Positions 1,835-33,114 of a DNA stretch of 35,476 bases are shown here, piece after piece. The DNA is taken from IMG/VR virus record IMGVR_UViG_3300047546_001285, positions 1 through 35,476 of that record. One strand, written 5' to 3'. Every line of letters begins with the position of its first letter. Within the stretch, counting starts at the first letter, position 1. This stretch comes from a virus. The notes under the pieces were generated by a model. It saw only the letters and a program-made list of their open reading frames with translations. It was not told the DNA's origin and made no database searches. Made by a program: the position numbers and the translations under genes.

Positions 1835-4800
1835 ATGGCAGCACTCGATAATATAGCATCAGAGTTATTAAAGTCTGCTAATGAAGCGGATTTAATATTT
1901 AAAAGAACTCGTGACCAAGCACAGAGGGACAAGGCTGTTCGTCTGCGTAGAATTGTTGAGAATTTGCGCCAATTAATAATTGGTGATATGCTCAAGTCCA
2001 CTTATGATACAGATGACGATGGTGTTGTAGATGCCTCTGAGACCGTTCGCATAATTGTAAGAAATAGCACGGGATCTACTTTAAATAAAGGATCTGTAGT
2101 TTATCTTAGCGGAGCAACAGGAAATAGACCTAATGCTCTCTTGTCTCAAGCAAATGCTGAGTCTACTTCATCTAAAACTATCGGTATTGTAATTGCTAAT
2201 ATTCCAAACAATAGTGATGGATATGTTGCAGTAAGTGGTACATTACACGATTTGGATACATCGGCCTTTACGGCAGGTAGTGATGTTTGGTTATCTCCAA
2301 CCGTAGCCGGGGGCCTCACTACAACTGTACCGACTGAACCCAACCATTCAGTTTTCATAGGTTATATAGCACGTTCACATCCCACCCAAGGACGATTAGT
2401 AATTTTAATTCAAAATGGATATGAACTAAATGAACTACACGATGTAAACGCCCCAACTCCCTCGAATGGAGATTTGCTTCAATATGATTCAGTTAATAAT
2501 TATTGGAAAAACGTAGCCTCCTCAGTTGCTGTTCCAACTCCAACGCTCGCACAGGTAACAACGGCGGGGAATACGACTACAAATGGAATAGTACTGGGGT
2601 CTGCTACAGCTATAACGGCATCTCCATATACGCTACAGGTGGTAGGCGGATCTGGAGGAAGTGCAATATTCTCAAACGCAGCAAAAACGCAAGGGTTAAA
2701 CATTAACTTAACAACGGCTGGAGAGACAAGGATATATGGAGATTATTTTGGAGCTGGAGTAGATCAAAAGTTGATACTTGGAACATTTGCAAACAGGGCC
2801 ACACAACTTGTTCTTCAGACATCAGGAAACGTAGGGATTGGAACTACTACTGACGCTGGGTACAAGTTGGACGTTAATGGCACAATAAGATCAACCAGCT
2901 CTATCTGGACAGATTTTTTGTCTCCCGTTGGATCAACTATGTATATTTATAGCATAGGGCTATCTGGAGGTGCGTATAACAGATTAAATATTTATTACAA
3001 TAGTGTAAACGGATTTGTAATGCAATCCGATGGTGGTGGTGGTGGAAGTAGAAGTATGAGTGTATTCGGAGGGGGCCCTGGAGGTGTTTTGAACTTAGGA
3101 ACAAACGGGGCAACAAGATGGACACTACTTAGCAGTTATGATGCATCAGGGGCAGGTCACTTTATACCTAACGGAACAAATACATATGATATAGGAAATT
3201 CTTCTAACACAGTAAGAAACCTATATTCCAATCGTGCCATTTTTTCTGGATCAGTGACGGCATCGGCAGCAATTGCAAATGCTGTTTCTATTACAAATAC
3301 ACTCGTAGCGGCAGCTAACAACGACGTGCTTGTTGGACTAGACATCAACCCTACGTTTACTAATGGTGCATTTACGGGGGTAACGAATACGACTTTAAGA
3401 GTTACGGGAAATAGTACTTTAATTGGTAATCTGACTATAACGTCGAATAATGGAAGCATAATAAACCAAAACTCATATGCTTCAAACGTTTTTACCGTTA
3501 AGGCTGTAAATAATACCACAGATATAGGTGGTATGATAATAAATGCAGGAACGGGTGATAGCCGTTTTGGTAGCTTTAGAGTTGGTGGCGGTTATTATAC
3601 TACATTCTATGTAAACAATGCTGAACTAATAAGATTATCTACTTCCAATAACGTATTAATCGGAACCACTACAGACGCAGGCTATAAGCTAGATGTTAAT
3701 GGAACCGCGAGAATTCAGGGTGTAATAACAGGAAGTGTTGGGGGTGGTGCAATCACGTTAGGAGCTGCTTCTGCAAACCAATCTGCGATAAGCATAAATG
3801 GGTATTTTACTGGAAACGGAGCAATTATAACAAGCAATGCCAATGGAAGAAGTTTCAACTCTATAATTGGTGCTCAAAACTCTGGTATTATATCATCGTA
3901 CAACGGTAACGCTCAAGGACAAACGGTAGCTAACCATTATTTTTTAGCAACAGGGAACATCAATTTAACTGATGGGGCGATTGATTTACATGGTTTTGCG
4001 TTTACGCCAACAATTGTAAGTGAAACAGGCGCTACAATAAAAGCATTTAGTAGTACTTTATCTGCTGCATCAAACCATTACAACTTATATCTATCTGGGA
4101 CTGCACAAAACTATTTAGCTGGTAGAGTAGGTATTGGGTTGACTAATCCACAAGGGGCTACACATATTGCAGTAGCAAGTGGAACTCCTGCTTTAGTTTT
4201 GTCAGATGTTGGAGCACCAGATGCAATTCCAACCTTGCAATTTAGAAGAGGTCCATTATCTGCATTTTCTCTACAGGTTGATTTCCCAAGCAATAACAAA
4301 GCACGTTTTCAAATAGGAGATGCGGTTACTGGGTATGAATTTACAGGAGGCAACTTGGGATTAACTGGTGGAAGATCAATTGAGTTTGCAGGAATAACAG
4401 GACAAGTGGCTACCGCTATAGTAGGAAGCATACATACAGATAACAATAATGGTCAATTGTTATTTTCTACTCGTGGAAGTGCTGTAACAGCAGAAAGGGC
4501 AAGAATAACAAATAACGGAAACTTCTTGATCAACACTACCACAGACGCAGGCTATAAATTAGACGTTAACGGAACTGGAAGATTCAGCGGTCAGGTAAAA
4601 TTTGACAACTCCAATATCATCGCAACAGGAATAACCTCTCAAGTAGCAAACTTCCAAATAGCGAGAGCGAATACAAATACATCTGTTGAGATAATTGGTG
4701 GTGCTACATCTGTTAAATTTGACGCAACAAGTGCTTCAGCGTCAACACAGTTTGCAGGAAAAGTAGCCATTGGTTCTGCGTACTTTACGCCAACAGAGAT

Positions 4801-4978
4801 GCTTCATGTTGACGGATCAATCAAGTCATCAGCACTCACCATAAACGGGCCAGTATTGGCTACTGGAGGAGTGTTGAGCAGCATTGCTGGATATACCGGT
4901 CTATTCACCGTACCGACAAATCCTCCAGGAATGCAAACTTTAGATATTCAGAATGGAATTATTGTAAATGTTTTGTAA
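1835..4978 (+). CDS. Large tail-fibre or tail-spike protein
   Basis: This is the largest protein in the window, at 1047 residues. Residues 1-60 are a helical, charged virion-attachment region. Residues 65-200 are a beta-rich shaft domain (VRNSTGSTLNKGSVVYLSGA). The rest is long, low-complexity beta structure rich in Asn, Gly, Thr and Ser. The phrase TTTDAGYKLDVNGT occurs three times, at about residues 336, 610 and 900, and marks repeat units of roughly 280 residues. Such phrases are common in Bacteroidetes phage fibres. The C-terminus (YTGLFTVPTN...) is not an S74-type self-cleaving chaperone. Trimerisation and host attachment are inferred from the family. Three near-identical DNA segments give the gene scope to vary by internal recombination. 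Confidence 0.8.
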   Translation: MAALDNIASELLKSANEADLIFKRTRDQAQRDKAVRLRRIVENLRQLIIGDMLKSTYDTDDDGVVDASETVRIIVRNSTGSTLNKGSVVYLSGATGNRPNALLSQANAESTSSKTIGIVIANIPNNSDGYVAVSGTLHDLDTSAFTAGSDVWLSPTVAGGLTTTVPTEPNHSVFIGYIARSHPTQGRLVILIQNGYELNELHDVNAPTPSNGDLLQYDSVNNYWKNVASSVAVPTPTLAQVTTAGNTTTNGIVLGSATAITASPYTLQVVGGSGGSAIFSNAAKTQGLNINLTTAGETRIYGDYFGAGVDQKLILGTFANRATQLVLQTSGNVGIGTTTDAGYKLDVNGTIRSTSSIWTDFLSPVGSTMYIYSIGLSGGAYNRLNIYYNSVNGFVMQSDGGGGGSRSMSVFGGGPGGVLNLGTNGATRWTLLSSYDASGAGHFIPNGTNTYDIGNSSNTVRNLYSNRAIFSGSVTASAAIANAVSITNTLVAAANNDVLVGLDINPTFTNGAFTGVTNTTLRVTGNSTLIGNLTITSNNGSIINQNSYASNVFTVKAVNNTTDIGGMIINAGTGDSRFGSFRVGGGYYTTFYVNNAELIRLSTSNNVLIGTTTDAGYKLDVNGTARIQGVITGSVGGGAITLGAASANQSAISINGYFTGNGAIITSNANGRSFNSIIGAQNSGIISSYNGNAQGQTVANHYFLATGNINLTDGAIDLHGFAFTPTIVSETGATIKAFSSTLSAASNHYNLYLSGTAQNYLAGRVGIGLTNPQGATHIAVASGTPALVLSDVGAPDAIPTLQFRRGPLSAFSLQVDFPSNNKARFQIGDAVTGYEFTGGNLGLTGGRSIEFAGITGQVATAIVGSIHTDNNNGQLLFSTRGSAVTAERARITNNGNFLINTTTDAGYKLDVNGTGRFSGQVKFDNSNIIATGITSQVANFQIARANTNTSVEIIGGATSVKFDATSASASTQFAGKVAIGSAYFTPTEMLHVDGSIKSSALTINGPVLATGGVLSSIAGYTGLFTVPTNPPGMQTLDIQNGIIVNVL

Positions 4979-21891: not shown

Positions 21892-22238
21892 TGTTTACCT
21901 CCTTGTATTTTATCACGCATCCATTTTGCGCCTGCCTCAAATTCATTGTCAAAACCCGAGTAATTAATTGCCTGTTTATGTACCTCCTCATCACTTGGCA
22001 GTTCAATGGGGGTATAATACCTAGGGGTATAATACCTATGCAAAAAATCATCTACAGTTCTTGTTGCACCAATTAATCCAATTAACATATGCTTGACTTG
22101 TTCTTCAGTGTATAGTTTCATACTTTGTTTATTGTTGCTCATTGTTTTATCTGTTAAAAATTTATTTAGTGTTTCACTTGTTTCATTGCTTAACGCTTCA
22201 TCAAGTTTGTTTTCAAGTTTATTTAAGTCAAGGCTCAT
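21888..22238 (-). CDS. Unknown protein, apparent fusion of two small modules
   Basis: This is a 116-residue protein. Residues 1-31 (LNKLENKLDEALSNETSETL) form one module. From M33 (MSNNKQSMKLYTEEQVKHM) the sequence looks like a separate protein start. The DNA around M33 repeats the start region of the gene at 27444-27653 with one mismatch in 30 bases. An in-frame fusion, or a second internal start at 22142, is possible. The end (AGAKWMRDKIQGGKQ) carries the next gene's Shine-Dalgarno. A 15-base tandem duplication encodes YYTPRYYTP. Function unknown. Confidence 0.6.
   Translation of the reverse strand: MSLDLNKLENKLDEALSNETSETLNKFLTDKTMSNNKQSMKLYTEEQVKHMLIGLIGATRTVDDFLHRYYTPRYYTPIELPSDEEVHKQAINYSGFDNEFEAGAKWMRDKIQGGKQ
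22009..22037. repeat. Tandem duplication of GGGGTATAATACCT
   Basis: GGGGTATAATACCT occurs at 22009-22022 and again at 22024-22037 (period 15). It adds five residues in frame (YYTPR) to the protein at 21888-22238 and looks like a recent slippage or duplication event. Confidence 0.8.
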
Positions 22239-22513
22239 TGCTCACCTCCTCCGTAGGTTTCGTTGTAGTATTCATTAAAGTCAACTTTCATTAGACCAGT
22301 TTCCCAACTTTTTATGTGTTGGTCTTTTTCCATTTCTTTGGCTTGGTTAAGTATTTCTTTCATACTTAAGTTGGGTTTTAACATTTCTTCTTCTAACCAT
22401 TCAATTGCCGTCTGTTTTTTTGGCTTCCCCGTGTTGTTTCCCTTTGCAAATTGATTAACCTTATCAAGGTACTCAACTGCATTCATCTCCGTTTGTTGTT
22501 TATTGTTTGTCAT
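22235..22513 (-). CDS. Small accessory protein, NETYGGGEQ family
   Basis: This 92-residue protein has KKQTAIEWLEEEMLK in the middle, QAKEMEKDQHIKSWETG, and the end FNEYYNETYGGGEQ. I know the family from many Bacteroidetes phages; the function is unknown. It is a paralogue of the genes at 22842-23117 and 27444-27653. Its own start has a Shine-Dalgarno at 22520-22524 (GGAGGTAACAA). Its last codons carry the Shine-Dalgarno for the next gene. Confidence 0.72.
   Translation of the reverse strand: MTNNKQQTEMNAVEYLDKVNQFAKGNNTGKPKKQTAIEWLEEEMLKPNLSMKEILNQAKEMEKDQHIKSWETGLMKVDFNEYYNETYGGGEQ
22236..22272. repeat. 37-base direct repeat, copy 1 (copy 2 at 22843-22879)
   Basis: An identical 37-base segment spans the end of one NETYGGGEQ-family gene and the start codon of the next gene, here and at 22843-22879. 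It holds the C-terminal codons, the GGAGGAGGTGA Shine-Dalgarno and the ATGA junction. Being perfect at DNA level, it is probably a young duplication or a recombination joint. Confidence 0.85.
22245..22252 (-). promoter_or_regulatory. Strong Shine-Dalgarno inside coding sequence (for 21888-22238)
   Basis: On the minus strand GGAGGAGGTGAGCA precedes ATG 22238. The bases encode Gly-Gly-Gly-Glu-Gln at the end of the upstream protein. Equivalent sites are at 22852-22859 (for the gene starting 22845), 22520-22524 (for 22513) and 21898-21902 (for 21891). Most other genes in the window have none. Confidence 0.75.
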
Positions 22514-22530: not shown

Positions 22531-22845
22531 TTATGTGTGTGATTTAATGTGTTCAATTGCTTTTTCTATGTTCTGATACCCTGTACCAATCTCTTGCCAA
22601 TCACCCCCGTACTGAGGCGTTACAAAACATCTGTACAGTCCATTGATTAATCTTACTTCACCATGTGCCTCTTCGCCAAAATCTATTTCATAGACAACTT
22701 GTTGTTTGTCTTTCTCCATAAGTTCTTTTAATTTTTCTTTACGCTCTTTTCTTAGTTGCTCTCGGTTTTCAATACGCCATTTGTTCTTTGCTATTGCATC
22801 CGATTGTTCTGCGTTTTCAAGGAGTTGTTTTATCTTGTCGTTCAT
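22531..22845 (-). CDS. Unknown protein with N-terminal coiled coil
   Basis: In this 104-residue protein, residues 1-45 are a charged helix or coiled coil (KWRIENREQLRKERKEKLKE). Residues 48-104 form a small beta-rich domain (EEAHGEVRLINGLYRCFV, then GTGYQNIEKAIEHIKSHT). It starts at ATG 22845 with the Shine-Dalgarno carried by the upstream gene. I do not recognise the family. Confidence 0.62.
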   Translation of the reverse strand: MNDKIKQLLENAEQSDAIAKNKWRIENREQLRKERKEKLKELMEKDKQQVVYEIDFGEEAHGEVRLINGLYRCFVTPQYGGDWQEIGTGYQNIEKAIEHIKSHT

Positions 22846-23117
22846 TGCTCACCTCCTCCGTAGGTTTCGTTGTAGTATTGTTCACCAGTTATTGGTAGTG
22901 TACTTTCAGGATAATCAATTCCATGAACTGTTCCTTTGTTGTATGCAGTTTCAATTCTTTCCTTCTCCATTTCTTTGGCTTGTTTTTTTAATTCTAGATA
23001 TTCACTTACATCAATTGAAATTTGGATTCGTTTAATACTCGCATTTTCCCAAGCATTCCCCTTGAGTTCTAGTTGGTCGATAAATTCTTCCACTGCCGTT
23101 TGTTGTTTAGTTCTCAT
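22842..23117 (-). CDS. Small accessory protein, NETYGGGEQ family
   Basis: This 91-residue paralogue of 22235-22513 starts MRTKQQTAVEEFIDQLELKG, has LKKQAKEMEKERIETAYNKG, and ends QYYNETYGGGEQ. The last 37 bases of the gene region are identical to the other copy (22236-22272). It overlaps both neighbours. Function is unknown; these are typical middle-region accessory genes. Confidence 0.72.
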   Translation of the reverse strand: MRTKQQTAVEEFIDQLELKGNAWENASIKRIQISIDVSEYLELKKQAKEMEKERIETAYNKGTVHGIDYPESTLPITGEQYYNETYGGGEQ

Positions 23118-23392
23118 GGTCTGTATTTCTTATCAATTAACTCTACTACGTTCCAAATGAACAGCGATACACCACACAGTGTCCACATCCAATGTCTGAA
23201 GCCCCAGTGCGTAGATGGCATATGGTCTTGCTGTCTGTAAGAACATCCTACTATGTCGTAAGAATTACCTTCGACGATTACTTTTCCACCTTGACAAACC
23301 CAATCTCCAAAGAAGTCTGGGAATGTTTCGGGAATGAACGAGAATAACATTGCAATCGCAAAGATTGCTACTAGTCTTAATTTATTTTTCAT
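23114..23392 (-). CDS. Two-helix membrane protein
   Basis: I chose ATG 23392 (92 residues), which overlaps the ThyX stop as ATGA; the longer frame from 23449 lies in thyX. Residues 4-23 are hydrophobic (KLRLVAIFAIAMLFSFIPET) and may be a signal or membrane helix. Residues about 65-82 (HWMWTLCGVSLFIWNVV) form a second helix. Between them is a short extracytoplasmic segment with two Cys (DWVCQGGKVIVEGNSYDIVG). It may modify the envelope; no family is recognised. Confidence 0.6.
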   Translation of the reverse strand: MKNKLRLVAIFAIAMLFSFIPETFPDFFGDWVCQGGKVIVEGNSYDIVGCSYRQQDHMPSTHWGFRHWMWTLCGVSLFIWNVVELIDKKYRP

Positions 23393-24042
23393 GGTTTGAT
23401 CATTTTGAGTGTGTGTTTGAATGGGTTTCCTTCTATATTCTCTACGCATAACATCATCATTTCTGCTATGTTTCGGGTCTCAGCCTGCGCATCTGGTTTA
23501 CTTCTCAAATTATATAAATGAATAAAAGCCTGTAAAGATCCAGTCCAAATGAACTCAGTCATTAGGTTTAACGGCAAAACCATTCTGGCCTGTTCCTTAG
23601 ATACACCTAATTCTAATAGATGTTCGTAATTCTGCTTGGCTTGCTTGATAGATTCTCCCATTATGCTATTTGCTACTGATTGTTTGTATGTATCAATTGT
23701 ACCATCACTACCTTGTTTAGAATCTTTAGACTGTTCTCTCCATTCACCAAAAGAAACACTATAATATTCATCAGAGAAATCAACATAACGACCGCTGATT
23801 GAGTTTACCGATATTCCGACAGTGTGCTTAAATAACTGGCGTTCCACAAATATGGGGCACTTGATTCTAAACTGTAACTGAGGATGTCTAAATGGAGAAG
23901 TATGTCCATGAGTCCAAAGATATTTAATAAGCCTTGAGTTTTGGTCCTCTGTGTAGTTAGAGGCATCTTTTCCGTATGACACTCTTGCCACATTTGCAAT
24001 CATTTCGTCGTTTCCGAAGTGGGATAATAATTCAACTTTCAT
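23389..24042 (-). CDS. thyX: Flavin-dependent thymidylate synthase
   Basis: This is a 217-residue protein. ERQLFKHTVGISVNSISGRY at residues 67-86 corresponds to the ThyX signature. S78, N80, S83, R85 and Y86 are conserved. The classical RHR reads as a K-H-T-V-G variant, as in some phage ThyX proteins. TSPFRHPQLQFRIKCPI and LPLNLMTEFIWTGSLQAF are further family segments. It methylates dUMP to dTMP using FAD and methylene-tetrahydrofolate, supplying thymidine for phage DNA alongside nrdJ. The gene overlaps both neighbours by a few bases. Confidence 0.88.
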   Translation of the reverse strand: MKVELLSHFGNDEMIANVARVSYGKDASNYTEDQNSRLIKYLWTHGHTSPFRHPQLQFRIKCPIFVERQLFKHTVGISVNSISGRYVDFSDEYYSVSFGEWREQSKDSKQGSDGTIDTYKQSVANSIMGESIKQAKQNYEHLLELGVSKEQARMVLPLNLMTEFIWTGSLQAFIHLYNLRSKPDAQAETRNIAEMMMLCVENIEGNPFKHTLKMIKP

Positions 24043-24175
24043 TTTTCTTTTCTAAATATTCTGCGAATGAAATAGCCGTACTCTCGCTAGGAAAAGTACT
24101 AACTAACTCTTGTTTGTAATAAACACGCCACACATCTACTCCATTGACTGTGGCTTTAACTATTCTTGTGTTCAT
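24032..24175 (-). CDS. Small unknown protein, 47 residues
   Basis: ATG 24175 overlaps the preceding TGA (ATGA) and the stop overlaps thyX by 11 bases. The product (MNTRIVKATVNGVDVWRVYY, then a helical end SFAEYLEKKN) has a beta-beta-alpha look, like small phage proteins that cap or bind partners. No family is recognised, but the framing by overlaps supports it. Confidence 0.55.
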   Translation of the reverse strand: MNTRIVKATVNGVDVWRVYYKQELVSTFPSESTAISFAEYLEKKNES

Positions 24176-24522
24176 GTTAGGAGGTCTTTGAATTTTTTAC
24201 GCTTATCAATTTGTTCTGTTCTATGTTTCTCTTTCTCTAGTTCAGGTACTCTTCTCAGCATGCTTTCTTCAAGAATATCTGAGGCGCTAGTTTCAAGGAA
24301 GTCTACAAAGGTAATGTATTTTGCTAATTCTGTCCAAGAAGATTTTCTAATTACTTCAGTTGCCTTTTCGTAACTTGAACAATCCTTGTAGATCATAGCA
24401 TCACCAATTATATCTGACAGCATATCAGTACGATAGCGAATGTAGTTGTCGTCTGTTATTGCAAAAATAAACCCGCTGGGTGTGTAGATTAATATCTTTT
24501 CCCAATCAAATGAGTCCTTCAT
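24172..24522 (-). CDS. Unknown protein, 116 residues
   Basis: The N-terminus is beta-rich and aromatic (FDWEKILIYTPSGFIFAITD) and the second half is helical and charged, ending EKEKHRTEQIDKRKKFKDL. It overlaps the end of the serine recombinase gene by 17 bases. No motif is known. It may be an accessory of the recombinase by position only. Confidence 0.55.
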   Translation of the reverse strand: MKDSFDWEKILIYTPSGFIFAITDDNYIRYRTDMLSDIIGDAMIYKDCSSYEKATEVIRKSSWTELAKYITFVDFLETSASDILEESMLRRVPELEKEKHRTEQIDKRKKFKDLLT

Positions 24523-25201
24523 ATATGTTGTTTCTTAGTATTTTGGTTATGGTTGTTGATTCTATTCTCCCACCTTTCTTGCCTTTGATTCCTTGTTTGT
24601 TTAGTTCACGGGCTATGTCTTTGTAAGTGAGGCCTCCCTCCCTCAAATCGTAAACCGTTTTGACTATCTTCATTTCACTATCATCAGGTATTAGTTTCCC
24701 ATCAACTTTGAGAAAGCCCAATGGGGTAACGCCACAATATACCTTGCGTTCTTTCTTTAAGTGTGACATAACACTTGTGATAAGTTCTCCCCTTTGATTG
24801 GATTCAAACTCAGCAAATGCTGCAATCATTTGAAGCATAAGTTTGCCGTGAGATGTACGAGTGTCTACTTGAAAGTCTTGCGTGTAGAATGCCACGTCTT
24901 TCTTTTCGAGGAAGTCAATCCATTTCAAAGTATCTTTGAGGTTCCTACCAAAACGAGATAGACTGTATACGGCAACTACATCAATCTTCTTTTGTTCAGC
25001 CAATCTAATCATCTTCATAAACTCAGGGCGATTCTCAAATCGTTTACCTGATACGCCTGGATCTGAGAACTGATAACGAATCTCGCAGTCGTTCATATTA
25101 CAGAACGCTTGTAGTTTCTCTAACTGATTGTCTAACGAAGAGCCGTCTTCGACTTGGTCAACGTGTGACACCCTCGTGTATATCGCTGCTACTTTCTTCA
25201 T
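24506..25201 (-). CDS. Serine recombinase (resolvase/invertase type)
   Basis: In this 231-residue protein, residues 1-140 are a serine-recombinase catalytic domain: AAIYTRVSHVDQ with the nucleophile S12, DPGVSGKRFENRP, YSLSRFGRNLKD (catalytic Arg) and GKLMLQMIAAFAEFE leading into the long E helix. Residues 150-231 are a short recombinase/helix-turn-helix region (GLTYKDIARELNKQGIKGKK). The zinc ribbon and coiled coil of large serine integrases are absent, so it is nearer to resolvases or invertases. I saw no flanking inverted recombination sites. It could resolve genome multimers or switch DNA. Confidence 0.85.
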   Translation of the reverse strand: MKKVAAIYTRVSHVDQVEDGSSLDNQLEKLQAFCNMNDCEIRYQFSDPGVSGKRFENRPEFMKMIRLAEQKKIDVVAVYSLSRFGRNLKDTLKWIDFLEKKDVAFYTQDFQVDTRTSHGKLMLQMIAAFAEFESNQRGELITSVMSHLKKERKVYCGVTPLGFLKVDGKLIPDDSEMKIVKTVYDLREGGLTYKDIARELNKQGIKGKKGGRIESTTITKILRNNIYEGLI

Positions 25202-29134: not shown

Positions 29135-29554
29135 TTAATAACCGTTTTCTCTTAGTTCTATTTCTTGTTGGAAGTGATACCCCCAAGGTGTCAAAGCAAA
29201 TGACTCAACGAGTCCTACGTAATACCAAAAGATATCGTACAATGAGTCGTCTGATATTTCTGATAATGTCATTGGGTCGGGGGTCTCAAACCTCATCCCT
29301 TCCTCATACGCACGTCTCCATAACATTGTATCTCTCCACTCTCTAACACCCAATGCACACAACATAAACCTAACAGGTTTCTTTGCAATGGTATCAATGT
29401 CAAGGTTAGGCTTCTCTTGCCACTCCGCAAGAAGTTTACCCTGCTTATCTTCAATGACACCGCTAGTCAAGGCATCATCATAAATACTTCTGTCATAAAA
29501 CCATAGGGCTGTATTGCCCATGAATTTCTTTGTTTGTTCTGTTTTAGCTTGCAT
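29135..29554 (-). CDS. Unknown Trp-rich protein, 139 residues
   Basis: A helical, aromatic protein: NTALWFYDRSIYDDALTSG, KPVRFMLCALGVREWRDTML and DIFWYYVGLVESFALTPWGY. No catalytic motif that I can name. It overlaps the first paralogue of the tandem array by 11 bases. Its FETPDP codons carry a GGGGTCTCA copy (29280-29288). Confidence 0.58.
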   Translation of the reverse strand: MQAKTEQTKKFMGNTALWFYDRSIYDDALTSGVIEDKQGKLLAEWQEKPNLDIDTIAKKPVRFMLCALGVREWRDTMLWRRAYEEGMRFETPDPMTLSEISDDSLYDIFWYYVGLVESFALTPWGYHFQQEIELRENGY

Positions 29555-29864
29555 AACTTAATTGGTTTAATCGATTAATTTCTTCATAAATTAATTTAAG
29601 GTCGTTGTTTATTTTTTCAATCAGTTCGTCTGTTGGTTTACAGTAATATATTTCTTTCGTTCTATGGTCATCGGGAGTTGCCCATCCCCGAACGTATATT
29701 GTAGGCTCAATATGGTGGATACCCCACTCAGGACAAGCGGATGACTGTATGACAATGCCTCTTGTGTTTATCTGAATATGATCCATATTACGAACCCGCT
29801 GATACACTACTCGCATGAATACATCATCGTCTTTTCTTACGAGCAAAATTCTAAAGGGGTACAT
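29544..29864 (-). CDS. Tandem-array paralogue 5 (PFRILLVRK/RVVYQ family)
   Basis: This is a 106-residue member of a five-gene family lying head to tail. The N-terminus MYPFRILLVRKDDDVFMRVV is followed by Y-Q. The middle has YVRGWATPDDHRTKE, matching the family's xxRGD-x-x-x-x-DH place with GWA instead of GDQ. The C-terminal helix ends NNDLKLIYEEINRLNQL. It is the most diverged in the central loop. No known family. It overlaps the next copy by 14 bases. Confidence 0.68.
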   Translation of the reverse strand: MYPFRILLVRKDDDVFMRVVYQRVRNMDHIQINTRGIVIQSSACPEWGIHHIEPTIYVRGWATPDDHRTKEIYYCKPTDELIEKINNDLKLIYEEINRLNQLSYAS

Positions 29865-30123
29865 GATTTTTTATTGTTTGGTTAATTTGATTTAATTTTA
29901 AAATAGTTTCTTCTGTGTATGGTACACTCTCTACCAAATTATTGTAAGGGGAATAATCCCCTCTTAGGTACACGCCAAAAAACATACCTGTAATTAATTG
30001 TGGAGACCAAGAGCAACGAACTATAAAATTATCTGTGACTAGGTCTGGTCGACCGTCTTGATAAACAACACGGTAGAATAGACGGTCTCCTCTTTTTACG
30101 ACTAATACTTTAAACTTGTTCAT
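29851..30123 (-). CDS. Tandem-array paralogue 4
   Basis: This 90-residue protein has NKFKVLVVKRGDRLFYRVVY then QDGRPDL at the N-terminus. GVYLRGDYSPYNNLV keeps RGD but has lost the DH pair. The C-terminal helix is EETILKLNQINQTIKNH. The first 40 residues are closest to paralogue 3 (RVVYQEGRP). It starts inside the end of paralogue 3. Function unknown. Confidence 0.68.
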   Translation of the reverse strand: MNKFKVLVVKRGDRLFYRVVYQDGRPDLVTDNFIVRCSWSPQLITGMFFGVYLRGDYSPYNNLVESVPYTEETILKLNQINQTIKNHVPL

Positions 30124-30391
30124 GGATTGAATTGTTTATTCTTTCAACAAAAGCCACGATGTCATCTGAGACCCGACCTTCTGATCTTTGGTGATACTCG
30201 TGATCAGCACGTCTCTGATCTCCTCGTAAAAATATTGTACCAATATCATCCTCAACAGCAAGTTCTACGCAGTCACAACAATTAATTTTTACATCGATGT
30301 CACGGTTTAACGTAGGTCGACCCTCTTGATATACTACACGAGTATAAAGATAGCCTTGTCTTCTAACGATTAAGAGTCTAAAAGGGTACAT
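30110..30391 (-). CDS. Tandem-array paralogue 3
   Basis: This 93-residue protein has YPFRLLIVRRQGYLYTRVVY at the N-terminus, then QEGRPTL, a CCDC cluster, and IFLRGDQRRADHEYHQR, the full central signature. The C-terminal helix is DIVAFVERINNSIHEQV. It and paralogue 1 share FLRGDQR-ADH almost exactly. Overlaps are 14 bases with paralogue 4 and 22 bases with paralogue 2. Function unknown. Confidence 0.7.
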   Translation of the reverse strand: MYPFRLLIVRRQGYLYTRVVYQEGRPTLNRDIDVKINCCDCVELAVEDDIGTIFLRGDQRRADHEYHQRSEGRVSDDIVAFVERINNSIHEQV

Positions 30392-30654
30392 TTTATTTTT
30401 TCATTAAATTCGTGAAGAGATGGAAGATATCTATCTAGATTGGAAAAATTATTTGGTCTGTGTTCTTCGTGAGATATATCAAAACCATCTATTATATTTT
30501 CTTTTCCGTATCTACTTCTGGGATATGTCGAATAGTAACCATCGTTGTATTTGATTCCGTACTCGGGGTAGTCTTTTCCGTTTGAATATACTCTGCGAAA
30601 AGAATAGCCGTCGTTTTTTCTAACTATGAGGATTCTAAATGGATATGTTTTCAT
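30370..30654 (-). CDS. Tandem-array paralogue 2
   Basis: This 94-residue protein has KTYPFRILIVRKNDGYSFRR at the N-terminus, then V-Y-S-N-G. The central signature is largely lost but a HEEHRPNN remains where DH normally stands. A Tyr-rich loop (KYNDGYYSTYPRSRYGKE) is unique to it. The C-terminal helix is SLHEFNEKIKCTLLD. It is framed by overlaps of about 20 bases on both sides. Confidence 0.68.
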   Translation of the reverse strand: MKTYPFRILIVRKNDGYSFRRVYSNGKDYPEYGIKYNDGYYSTYPRSRYGKENIIDGFDISHEEHRPNNFSNLDRYLPSLHEFNEKIKCTLLDS

Positions 30655-30952
30655 GGTAGTAATTGTTTACTTCTTGTATCATTGATTTTAAATCATCAAT
30701 ATCTTCATATTCATAATATGATTTATCTATTCTGTGATCTGCGTGACGTTGGTCACCTCTAAGAAATAAAATATTTTCGCTAGACCTTAACTCGGGAGTA
30801 TTGACTGACTTAATCTTTAGTGGTCCCCAATGTTCAGTGTATTGGTAATGATCGGGATAAATAACAGGGTCCTGTCTAACAACTCTTGTGAGTACTTGAT
30901 CGTCTTTGATGACGCACAATACTTTTATATTTTTGAAGTTTATACTTTCCAT
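30635..30952 (-). CDS. Tandem-array paralogue 1
   Basis: This 105-residue protein is the first gene of the array. The N-terminus is NFKNIKVLCVIKDDQVLTRV then VRQDP. The central signature is ILFLRGDQRHADHRIDK. The C-terminal helix is DIDDLKSMIQEVNNYYHENI. Behind its start lies the hairpin that holds a GGGGTCTCA copy. It probably begins the array's translation, and the others follow by overlap. No function can be assigned. Confidence 0.7.
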   Translation of the reverse strand: MESINFKNIKVLCVIKDDQVLTRVVRQDPVIYPDHYQYTEHWGPLKIKSVNTPELRSSENILFLRGDQRHADHRIDKSYYEYEDIDDLKSMIQEVNNYYHENISI

Positions 30953-30960
30953 ATTTTTAA

Positions 30961-30999
30961 GATTAAAAATGGGGTCTCAGATTACTCATCAACCCCATT
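30961..30999 (-). terminator. Probable terminator or attenuator between amidotransferase and array
   Basis: On the minus strand AATGGGGT pairs with ACCCCATT (30992-30999 with 30968-30975), 8 pairs with a 16-base loop, followed by TTTAATC. The T tract is short and the loop large, so read-through is likely. The loop side contains the GGGGTCTCA motif. Confidence 0.45.
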
Positions 31000-31011
31000 A
31001 AACCAAACTAA

Positions 31012-31803
31012 TTAAAACAAAGATTCTGTATAAGATTTAACTGCCTTATGGTGTGTCTTGCACATAGCACACTGACAATTAACTAGGTCATCACCATACC
31101 CTTTCATCAACTCTATACCACAGTCAAGACAATAGCCCAATTCAATAGATGACTTCTCATAATCATCATCGAATTTATTGTAGTAATCATTCCAATCTTT
31201 CGATGCATAATCTACATTGGCATTGGTAGTCTTGGTGGTTTGTAGTTGGTGTCCGTAGTAGCGGAGTGTTGGATCGAGATAAGACTTGTTGCTGAACCAT
31301 GACTCACCATCCCAAAAGCCTGCTTTCTCATTGACAATAGTAACCTCATTGTCATTGCCCATAAAGATAAGTTTGTTGTATGAGCCAATGAAGTCAGCGA
31401 TAAGAGTCATGACGCTGTTGGACTTGGTAAAGTTCTTGGGCATATCTTTGAGGAACTCATTGAAGTGCCACGTGTCAGAGAACTCTGATACCCCGTAAGA
31501 GAAGTCATTGATGATACCATTGTGTACAAAACCTACAGTCTCGTCGACAATGAACGGGTGGATGTTACGTTCATCAACTACACCGTGAGTACGAATACGG
31601 AAGTGCAGTACAACTTTCTCGGTAACTTTGCGAACCTCTTGATACTTTTTGAAGAATGCTTTGAATGATTTGAGTTGCTTATATACTTGCAACTCTCCGT
31701 TCTCTACCCACAACATACCTGCACCGTCATCGTTAGAGTTCCAGCAGTTCTGTAATGTTTTCTTGGTAAGTAAATCTTTGTTGTTGTAAATTGCGATACA
31801 CAT
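31012..31803 (-). CDS. Class II glutamine amidotransferase-like protein with zinc ribbon
   Basis: This is a 263-residue protein. It begins MCIAIYNN, so removal of Met exposes the catalytic Cys2 of an N-terminal-nucleophile amidotransferase. DDGAGMLWV (25-33), LHFRIRTHG (66-74), NIHPFIV and GFVHNGII (91-98) match the class II glutamine amidotransferase core. It would release ammonia from glutamine. The C-terminus has five Cys (C225, C228, C243, C245, C248) in a zinc-ribbon-like arrangement. The upstream neighbour is an amidoligase, a pairing known in phages and bacteria, so the two may jointly form amide bonds. Confidence 0.8.
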   Translation of the reverse strand: MCIAIYNNKDLLTKKTLQNCWNSNDDGAGMLWVENGELQVYKQLKSFKAFFKKYQEVRKVTEKVVLHFRIRTHGVVDERNIHPFIVDETVGFVHNGIINDFSYGVSEFSDTWHFNEFLKDMPKNFTKSNSVMTLIADFIGSYNKLIFMGNDNEVTIVNEKAGFWDGESWFSNKSYLDPTLRYYGHQLQTTKTTNANVDYASKDWNDYYNKFDDDYEKSSIELGYCLDCGIELMKGYGDDLVNCQCAMCKTHHKAVKSYTESLF

Positions 31804-31845: not shown

Positions 31846-33114
31846 TTAGTTAGTTTCGATTGGTAATGTAGTCATAGGACTAGTTGTGTTGTTCATGAAG
31901 TCATCTTGTTGTTCGGGTGTTAGGTCATCCCAATCTACAATGATGATAGGATTATCCCACACAGTACCCGCTACGTTGGTAATCTTCTTGACTTTCTTGG
32001 GTGCTTTGACAATCTTTTTCTTGACAAGATAGTTGTGAGTGTCGATGATGTCGAATGAATACTCACGACAATATTTGTAGAATAACTCAGCCTTGGCAAT
32101 GATTTGTTCTACACTGTACACCTTGCGAAGTAAAGCATGTAACTTACCACGACCATCAAGCATATTTTTGAGGACTTGGGCCTCACTTACATCACGATTG
32201 GATACCATATACTTAATAAGTTCAGTACGCCACAACAGATTAGATACATTACGAACAGCACCAAAGATACGAAACTCTAAACGAGAGTCTTTGATAAACA
32301 CCGCACCATACTTATCATTGGCACTACTATGCTTGGAGATAGCAGGACAATAAGTATTGTTGACACGACCATTGTACAAACAGTAAAGCAAAGGCATATA
32401 AGATTTGATAGACTGATACAACTCACGATTAGTCATACTGATGTGAGAGATATTGATATGACCACCACAAGACTTGGAGTAGTCAGCATCGATATAACTC
32501 TTTACATTGGCAAAGGTATCAGCATTGACCTTGAACATATCAAAGACAGGAGATACAAACTCAAAGCCACTGTAATCATCGAGAGAACCATCGCGTTCTT
32601 TTGCCCAACCCGTACGTCTGAAACATTCATACGCTGACTCTTCTGTCTTGACATCGTAGTCTTCTTTCTCTACCTCATAAGCAATACGCCACTCTGCACG
32701 CTGTGCCTCGGGAGAGAACACACGATTGCCCGAATGATAATCGAACGTGTAATCTTTATCGTTATCTTCTTCTTCGGTATAAAACTCACCGTCATCATGA
32801 AGATACAAGCCATAGTCACGAGCAACATCGTCGTTCATTGCGTAGTCAAAGCGGCAACCGTTGACTGAATAGTACTCACACTCATGACTAGAAAAGTAAC
32901 CGCAGTTACCGTGTCGGTCAATGAGTCCGTAAAGAGCATCGTCTCGCCAAATGTCTTCTTCGAGATACGAACACTCGACAATTCTACCTTTGTCTTGGAG
33001 GTCTTCATACTGTGTGTCAGTAAGCCAAGCGTCTAAGTAAGTGTAGTGTCTGGCTTGTGATTGAGGTACGATTGTACCATCGTAGGTCGTTACTAAAATT
33101 TCAGTAGTTTCCAT
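31846..33114 (-). CDS. Amidoligase family (COOH-NH2 ligase-like) protein
   Basis: This is a 422-residue protein. After an acidic 140-residue N-terminal region comes an amidoligase core. AYEVEKE (145-151) stands in the place of the usual GxExE strand. DGSL (175-178), GFEFVSP (183-189), CGGHINIS (216-223) and RLEFRIFGA (278-286) follow in the expected order. Amidoligases are ATP-dependent, glutamine-synthetase-like enzymes that join carboxyl and amino groups. The N-terminus (YLEEDIWRDDALYGLIDRHG, Cys- and Tyr-rich) is not part of the core and may hold the substrate or a partner. It lies 42 bases upstream of the class II amidotransferase. The substrate is unknown. Confidence 0.75.
   Translation of the reverse strand: METTEILVTTYDGTIVPQSQARHYTYLDAWLTDTQYEDLQDKGRIVECSYLEEDIWRDDALYGLIDRHGNCGYFSSHECEYYSVNGCRFDYAMNDDVARDYGLYLHDDGEFYTEEEDNDKDYTFDYHSGNRVFSPEAQRAEWRIAYEVEKEDYDVKTEESAYECFRRTGWAKERDGSLDDYSGFEFVSPVFDMFKVNADTFANVKSYIDADYSKSCGGHINISHISMTNRELYQSIKSYMPLLYCLYNGRVNNTYCPAISKHSSANDKYGAVFIKDSRLEFRIFGAVRNVSNLLWRTELIKYMVSNRDVSEAQVLKNMLDGRGKLHALLRKVYSVEQIIAKAELFYKYCREYSFDIIDTHNYLVKKKIVKAPKKVKKITNVAGTVWDNPIIIVDWDDLTPEQQDDFMNNTTSPMTTLPIETN

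Follow-up and report, generated by a model that had tools for sequence, protein, structure and literature searches.

A diverged tandem array of small paralogous proteins, from an apparently undescribed family, in a freshwater-type bacteriophage

Introduction

Phage anti-defence genes are known to be amplified in tandem, as has been described for tifA of phage T4 (PMC9391042) and for amplification driven by SegB (PMC13096335). A second described system that bears on the present locus is the module of an amidoligase and a class II glutamine amidotransferase carried by mycobacteriophage Marvin and the Methylophilales phages MEP401 and MEP402, and proposals summarised in PMC10580990 assign cell-wall modification or metabolite synthesis to such pairs.

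Here we consider a tandem array of five small genes in a freshwater-type bacteriophage, IMG/VR record IMGVR_UViG_3300047546_001285, positions 1 to 35,476; this whole stretch of 35,476 bases is referred to below as the window. The host is probably a member of the Bacteroidota and perhaps Flavobacterium, as judged from the similarity of the primase-helicase and from A-rich regions before start codons. The two genes upstream of the array resemble the amidoligase and amidotransferase module, of which the array is not a part as that module is described by Iyer et al. (2009), cited in PMC10580990. A reading of the window from its letters alone (the sequence-only reading) had proposed that the five genes are diverged paralogues of an unrecognised family.

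Results

The array and its conserved segments

Five overlapping open reading frames, W1 to W5, lie head to tail on the minus strand of the window at 29544-30952. In order they are W1 (30635..30952, 105 aa), W2 (30370..30654, 94 aa), W3 (30110..30391, 93 aa), W4 (29851..30123, 90 aa) and W5 (29544..29864, 106 aa). Thus there are indeed five genes of 90-106 codons, each of which starts inside the end of the preceding one; the overlaps are 14-22 nt in length (20, 22, 14 and 14 nt from the W1-W2 to the W4-W5 junction), and W5 in turn overlaps by 11 nt the next gene, which lies on the same strand at 29135..29554 and has no assigned function. The encoded proteins are small (10.6-12.7 kDa), and three of the five have a pI of 5.4-6.4.

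A profile built from the five proteins picks out exactly these five in the 35,476-base record, and in pairwise local alignments most pairs score above all 200 shuffles, the relationship between W1 and W2 being seen only by way of the remaining copies. With three further homologues in a related phage (see below), we regard it as all but certain that W1 to W5 are a true homologous array of tandem paralogues. The copies are old in appearance, with 19-36% identity to one another.

The N-terminal signature proposed from the sequence is present throughout: all five proteins open with F-R/K-x-L-x-V, after which comes R-V-V-Y-Q or a variant of it. The second proposed signature, LRGDQRxADH in three or four copies, holds in part. 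It is complete in W1 (FLRGDQRHADH) and W3 (FLRGDQRRADH) only, is partly retained in W4 (LRGDYSPYNN) and W5 (VRGWATPDDH), and is missing from W2, the most degenerate copy, which has no LRG and whose C-terminus is read in another frame at its junction. Pairwise identity is 54% in the N-terminal first strand, 85% in RVVYQ and 65% in the LRG strand, as against 10-17% in the stretches between these segments, so the strong differences noted in the central loops are borne out. The invariant columns are confined to M, F, L, R, V and N; the alignment contains no invariant residue of a catalytic type, no invariant K, E or D, and no common C-terminal tail.

Searches for known families

Neither the eight array proteins (five from the window and three from the related phage) nor their profile gave a significant match in Pfam, PHROGs, NCBIfam, PADLOC or PDB sequences, where scattered single weak matches were all that appeared (best E 0.013, for one member). 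The sole match to a PHROGs virion family likewise involves one member, at E 0.24. Small paralogous beta-proteins do occur as decoration proteins, but this single weak match counts against the idea that the array encodes several versions of a minor virion, capsid-decoration or tail protein. The array, moreover, shares its strand and region with replication and accessory genes, the structural block being elsewhere and on the other strand, and we consider a virion role very unlikely. Within the window, a 1047-aa structural-type protein is encoded at 1835-4978, in which a motif like I(G/N)TTTDAGYKLDVNGT is repeated several times.

Single array proteins found no relatives in IMG/VR, and tblastn searches with the array proteins found no member among 50,697 phage records. 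Two patterns of the form F-R/K-x-L...RVVYQ recovered from IMG/VR all three array genes of the related phage, the rest of their matches being chance frames; this recovery is a positive control for the 13-residue spacing of the pattern. A DNA pattern for LRGDQRxADH matched chance frames only. In GTDB genomes, the pattern with a 12-residue spacing yielded 34 stretches, of which one (L083) was a marginal match to the profile; it lies antisense to a gene of 1709 aa and was rejected. No match to the profile turned up in 792 Bacteroidota genomes, made up of 397 from the family of Maribacter and 395 from the phylum, a set with no positive control among them. Scans for exact motifs and searches with single sequences miss diverged members, and the family may be much wider than its present carriers. 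As far as these comparisons go, the family appears to be previously undescribed and new to every library searched, and the profile places the array proteins in no characterised family, in agreement with the sequence-only reading.

Divergence between related phages

Using the terminase as bait, we collected 34 loci from related phages, mostly on short contigs. The profile finds array homologues in one of them, where three genes, G1 to G3, lie at L048:5455-6284. The corresponding phage, G007, is the 67-kb contig IMGVR_UViG_3300033067_000449, whose terminase is 93% identical to that of the window. Its array occupies the same position, after amidotransferase-like and amidoligase-like genes and before a homologue of the downstream gene, and these flanking genes are 84%, 69% and 58% identical, respectively, to those of the window, whereas the arrays themselves share only about 30% identity. 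When the 40 minus-strand genes of the window were compared with the examined parts of G007, most shared genes were 52-95% identical and core genes mostly 73-95%, as against 31% for W1 and 33% for W3; W4 and W5 gave no match as single queries in the same parts. The array has thus diverged far faster than nearly all other shared genes. It does not stand alone in this but marks the far end of a gradient, because the genes just downstream are also less similar than the core (44-58%) and a ThyX-like gene matches at 36%. The latter gene, at 23389-24042 of the window, falls in a stretch that runs towards the end of the G007 contig, and its neighbours at 24172-25201 are 90-94% identical to their counterparts; its low identity reflects either gene replacement or an effect of the contig end.

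The two arrays differ in copy number, with five genes in the window and three in G007. W1 and G1 (L048:5997-6284) are reciprocal best matches with a common N-terminus, ME-x-INF, and by this evidence the first copies are orthologous. W5 and G3 group in the tree with a support of 0.84, and W5 is the best match of G3, so the last copies are probably orthologous as well. This first and last pairing implies that at least two array genes existed before the two phages separated, and it is the middle of the array that varies, with three copies in the window and one in G007. In a third phage, G023, the downstream gene is almost identical and the contig begins inside the tail of a W5 homologue, whose C-terminus reads ELIEKINNDLKLIYQPTN where the window has ...LIYEEINRLNQLSYAS; the last overlap is therefore not conserved in G023. 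The profile finds no array member in the more distant relatives G017, G024 and G025, in the records examined. The family is thus carried by two phages and one contig end, and the variation seen in related phages, namely five versus three copies, a kept scaffold and hypervariable segments, comes from one comparison.

The fast divergence could instead result from relaxed constraint, with the array as accessory baggage in which old duplicates drift and W2 is heading for loss. The missing LRG and changed frame of W2, the difference in copy number between the two phages and the altered C-terminus of the last gene between near-identical strains are all compatible with such drift. On the other hand, all eight array frames of the two phages are open, and RVVYQ (85%) and LRG (65%) persist amid strong divergence, which drift would not be expected to preserve. 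We therefore consider drift an improbable account of the array.

Junctions and leader

The two phages together have six internal junctions. At five of them, the stop codon of the upstream gene is embedded, one frame back, in the F-R/K codons of the next gene (TTTAGA or TTTAAA), 14-20 nt from the first base of the downstream ATG. At the sixth, W2-W3, this stop is still there, but W2 reads another frame. The first genes of the two arrays have no array gene upstream and carry TTCAAA, so that F-K is kept there without an embedded stop. A signature wholly forced by the overlapping stop is thereby rejected, since the first genes retain F-K and RVVYQ lies beyond the overlaps. The overlap accounts for some of the resemblance at the two termini, such as the ELPV tails seen in G1 and G2, and it is the overlapping next gene that largely sets the C-termini of the array proteins; RVVYQ and LRG both lie outside the overlaps and are not explained in this way. 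The junction geometry fits coupling by termination and reinitiation, and the array is probably made from one transcript with its copies produced by translational coupling.

The leader that separates the amidotransferase-like gene from W1 contains a terminator-like hairpin (30968..30999, minus strand), AAUGGGGUU...GACCCCAUU followed by a U-run, with z values of -2.83 and -1.70. The hairpin is present in G007, where pairing is kept through a compensatory change from U-A to C-G. It is preceded by a leader block, TTTTAATTAGTTTGGTTTAATGGGG (30993..31017, minus strand), that G007 carries without change and that is found nowhere else in the window; the 19-nt core of the block has a single occurrence there, where chance would give 0.02 when as many as three mismatches are allowed. 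The hairpin looks like a terminator or attenuator, two sequences being too few to prove the structure, and, conserved ahead of W1, it may allow separate expression of the array and the amidotransferase-like gene. Rfam gave nothing credible across the array region.

The neighbouring putative enzymes

Both genes upstream of the array are on the minus strand. The nearer, at 31012..31803, encodes a class II glutamine-amidotransferase-like protein with an N-terminal Cys after the initiating Met and the motifs HFRIRTHG and HNG; the farther, at 31846..33114, encodes an amidoligase-like protein with GFEFVSP, CGGHINIS and RLEFRIF. By tblastn the former matches phage proteins annotated as class II glutamine amidotransferase, including those of phages of the Marvin and MEP401/402 type, and the latter matches the PHROG amidoligase family at E 0.013 only. 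Because both fall below the Pfam cut-offs, their designation as amide-forming enzymes rests on motifs and context. Bait searches with the two proteins found no phage other than G007.

The sequence-only reading offered, as one option, that the array proteins are substrates of these enzymes. As such, or as carrier partners, they would be conjugated or amidated to give modified peptides or surface-active products. The array directly follows the ligase and amidotransferase genes in both carrier phages, the 62.9-kb relative G017 lacks all three elements, and the roles proposed for phage ligase/amidotransferase pairs, as summarised in PMC10580990, would be compatible with such products. The co-occurrence comes, however, from one lineage, and the array begins beyond the terminator-like hairpin that follows the enzyme genes. 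The proteins have no invariant Lys, Glu or Asp as an acceptor and no common tail, and their C-termini track the start of the next gene. Pairs of this type also occur in other phages without a detectable array: the profile finds no member in MEP402, Marvin or MW202828. With no conserved acceptor, tails set by the overlapping gene and pairs that lack the array elsewhere, the substrate reading is weaker than that of a binder family developed below, and we think it rather improbable; what stands of the earlier suggestion is that the array is encoded beside these enzymes in both phages. In MW202828 (L071:4152-7152), an uncharacterised protein weakly similar to the window's ligase-like protein adjoins a glutamine-amidotransferase domain fused to a gamma-glutamylamine cyclotransferase (GGACT) domain, an arrangement that is a variant of the enzyme module.

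Predicted structure

AlphaFold models of W3 and G2, predicted separately, have the same five strands and final helix (beta5-alpha), at low confidence (mean pLDDT 63.5 and 68.6, respectively). Structure prediction thus points, at that confidence, to a consistent fold and not to unrelated folds. The amphipathic terminal helix claimed for every copy is upheld as far as a helix is predicted in both models; its amphipathicity is clear only in W5, which is equalled by 5 of 300 shuffled tails, compared with 17-172 of 300 for the other copies. Fold searches of the PDB with these low-confidence models gave no match below E 0.1 and none with Z of at least 2. The best viral match, far above all others, is the BFVD model A0A8D9C9H8, a 105-aa uncharacterised protein of an uncultured marine phage, with a Foldseek probability of 0.98 and a TM-score of 0.58/0.55 over the whole length. 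At 10% sequence identity and an E-value of 0.025, obtained with a low-confidence query model, we take this resemblance as a lead only.

We considered whether proteins of this kind might act within the phage as nucleic-acid-binding or regulatory proteins of the small beta-barrel type, each with its own site, in transcription, replication or recombination. A small beta-rich fold whose conserved R, Y, Q and R positions could contact nucleic acid would suit such a role, and a DnaA-C-like gene lies a few kb from the array. The low-confidence models nevertheless match no OB, Sm, SH3 or other nucleic-acid fold, the pI of three of the five proteins is 5.4-6.4, and proteins with such a role would be expected to be conserved at least as well as their flanks, whereas the array is less conserved. 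We judge this role unlikely.

Other features of the window and related phages

Two genes that are intact in the window are interrupted in its relatives. In one related phage (L018:1-1842), an intein-like insert sits precisely within the Walker A loop (GVPG|SGKST) of the primase-helicase. The insert is itself broken into three overlapping open reading frames, of which the middle one is HNH-like, and represents a fractured, possibly split, intein; the L051 primase-helicase is divided at that residue too, about 321. The ribonucleotide reductase of a near-identical phage (L035:2916-6678) contains a group I intron with an open reading frame after residue 144 (Rfam RF00028 at 3370-3561) and, in frame at residue 313, an intein-like element; this is also the residue at which the L036 ribonucleotide reductase is split.

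Two neighbouring small proteins of the window (22235-22513 and 22842-23117) have a common C-terminal tail, YYNETYGGGEQ, whose DNA (GGAGGAGGTGAGCAATG) doubles as a Shine-Dalgarno-like stretch and the start of the gene that follows. L051:6346-6555 has a tail resembling it, YYNETYGGNK.

Discussion

We suggest that W1 to W5 belong to a lineage-specific family that arose by ancient duplication and whose members are small, soluble and built on one predicted beta5-alpha domain. Their common scaffold (the first strand, RVVYQ and LRG) is retained, and the segments between, like the copy number, change fast. Each copy would act by binding and not by catalysis, its variable segments recognising targets in the host that are most likely components of its defences or machinery to be shut down early in infection, and tandem duplication would have supplied new specificities. 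We arrive at a family of binders directed against host targets because the proteins are small and soluble, have no invariant catalytic residue, combine a scaffold with variable segments, differ in copy number, diverge fast and occupy an accessory position. The interpretation that we tentatively favour is that these lineage-specific binders have diversified to serve counter-defence or the takeover of the host.

A bolder formulation, which we put forward as no better than a speculative possibility, is that the locus is a phage diversification locus of an undescribed type, in which one beta5-alpha scaffold has given rise to a coupled, overlapping array of binders that differ in specificity and are directed against host defence, under a conserved leader hairpin, so that each phage would carry a small repertoire of inhibitors with one fold.

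To our knowledge, few counter-defence or host-takeover proteins have been described in Bacteroidota, and the array is a compact candidate set for screens of such functions in this phylum. Should its copies turn out to act on different targets, it would exemplify the natural diversification of one small fold inside one phage.

The array has no sequence relation to known anti-defence families, as judged through PHROG, Pfam, NCBIfam and PDB sequences, or to the tifA and SegB-type systems, and its anti-defence role is putative. What the array has in common with tifA and SegB-type amplification (PMC9391042, PMC13096335) is a set of small phage proteins in varying copy number, five versus three genes in the two phages, with 90-106 aa per protein in the window. 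The repeats of those systems, in contrast, are recent and were selected in the laboratory, whereas the copies of W1 to W5 are old, 19-36% identical and diversified.
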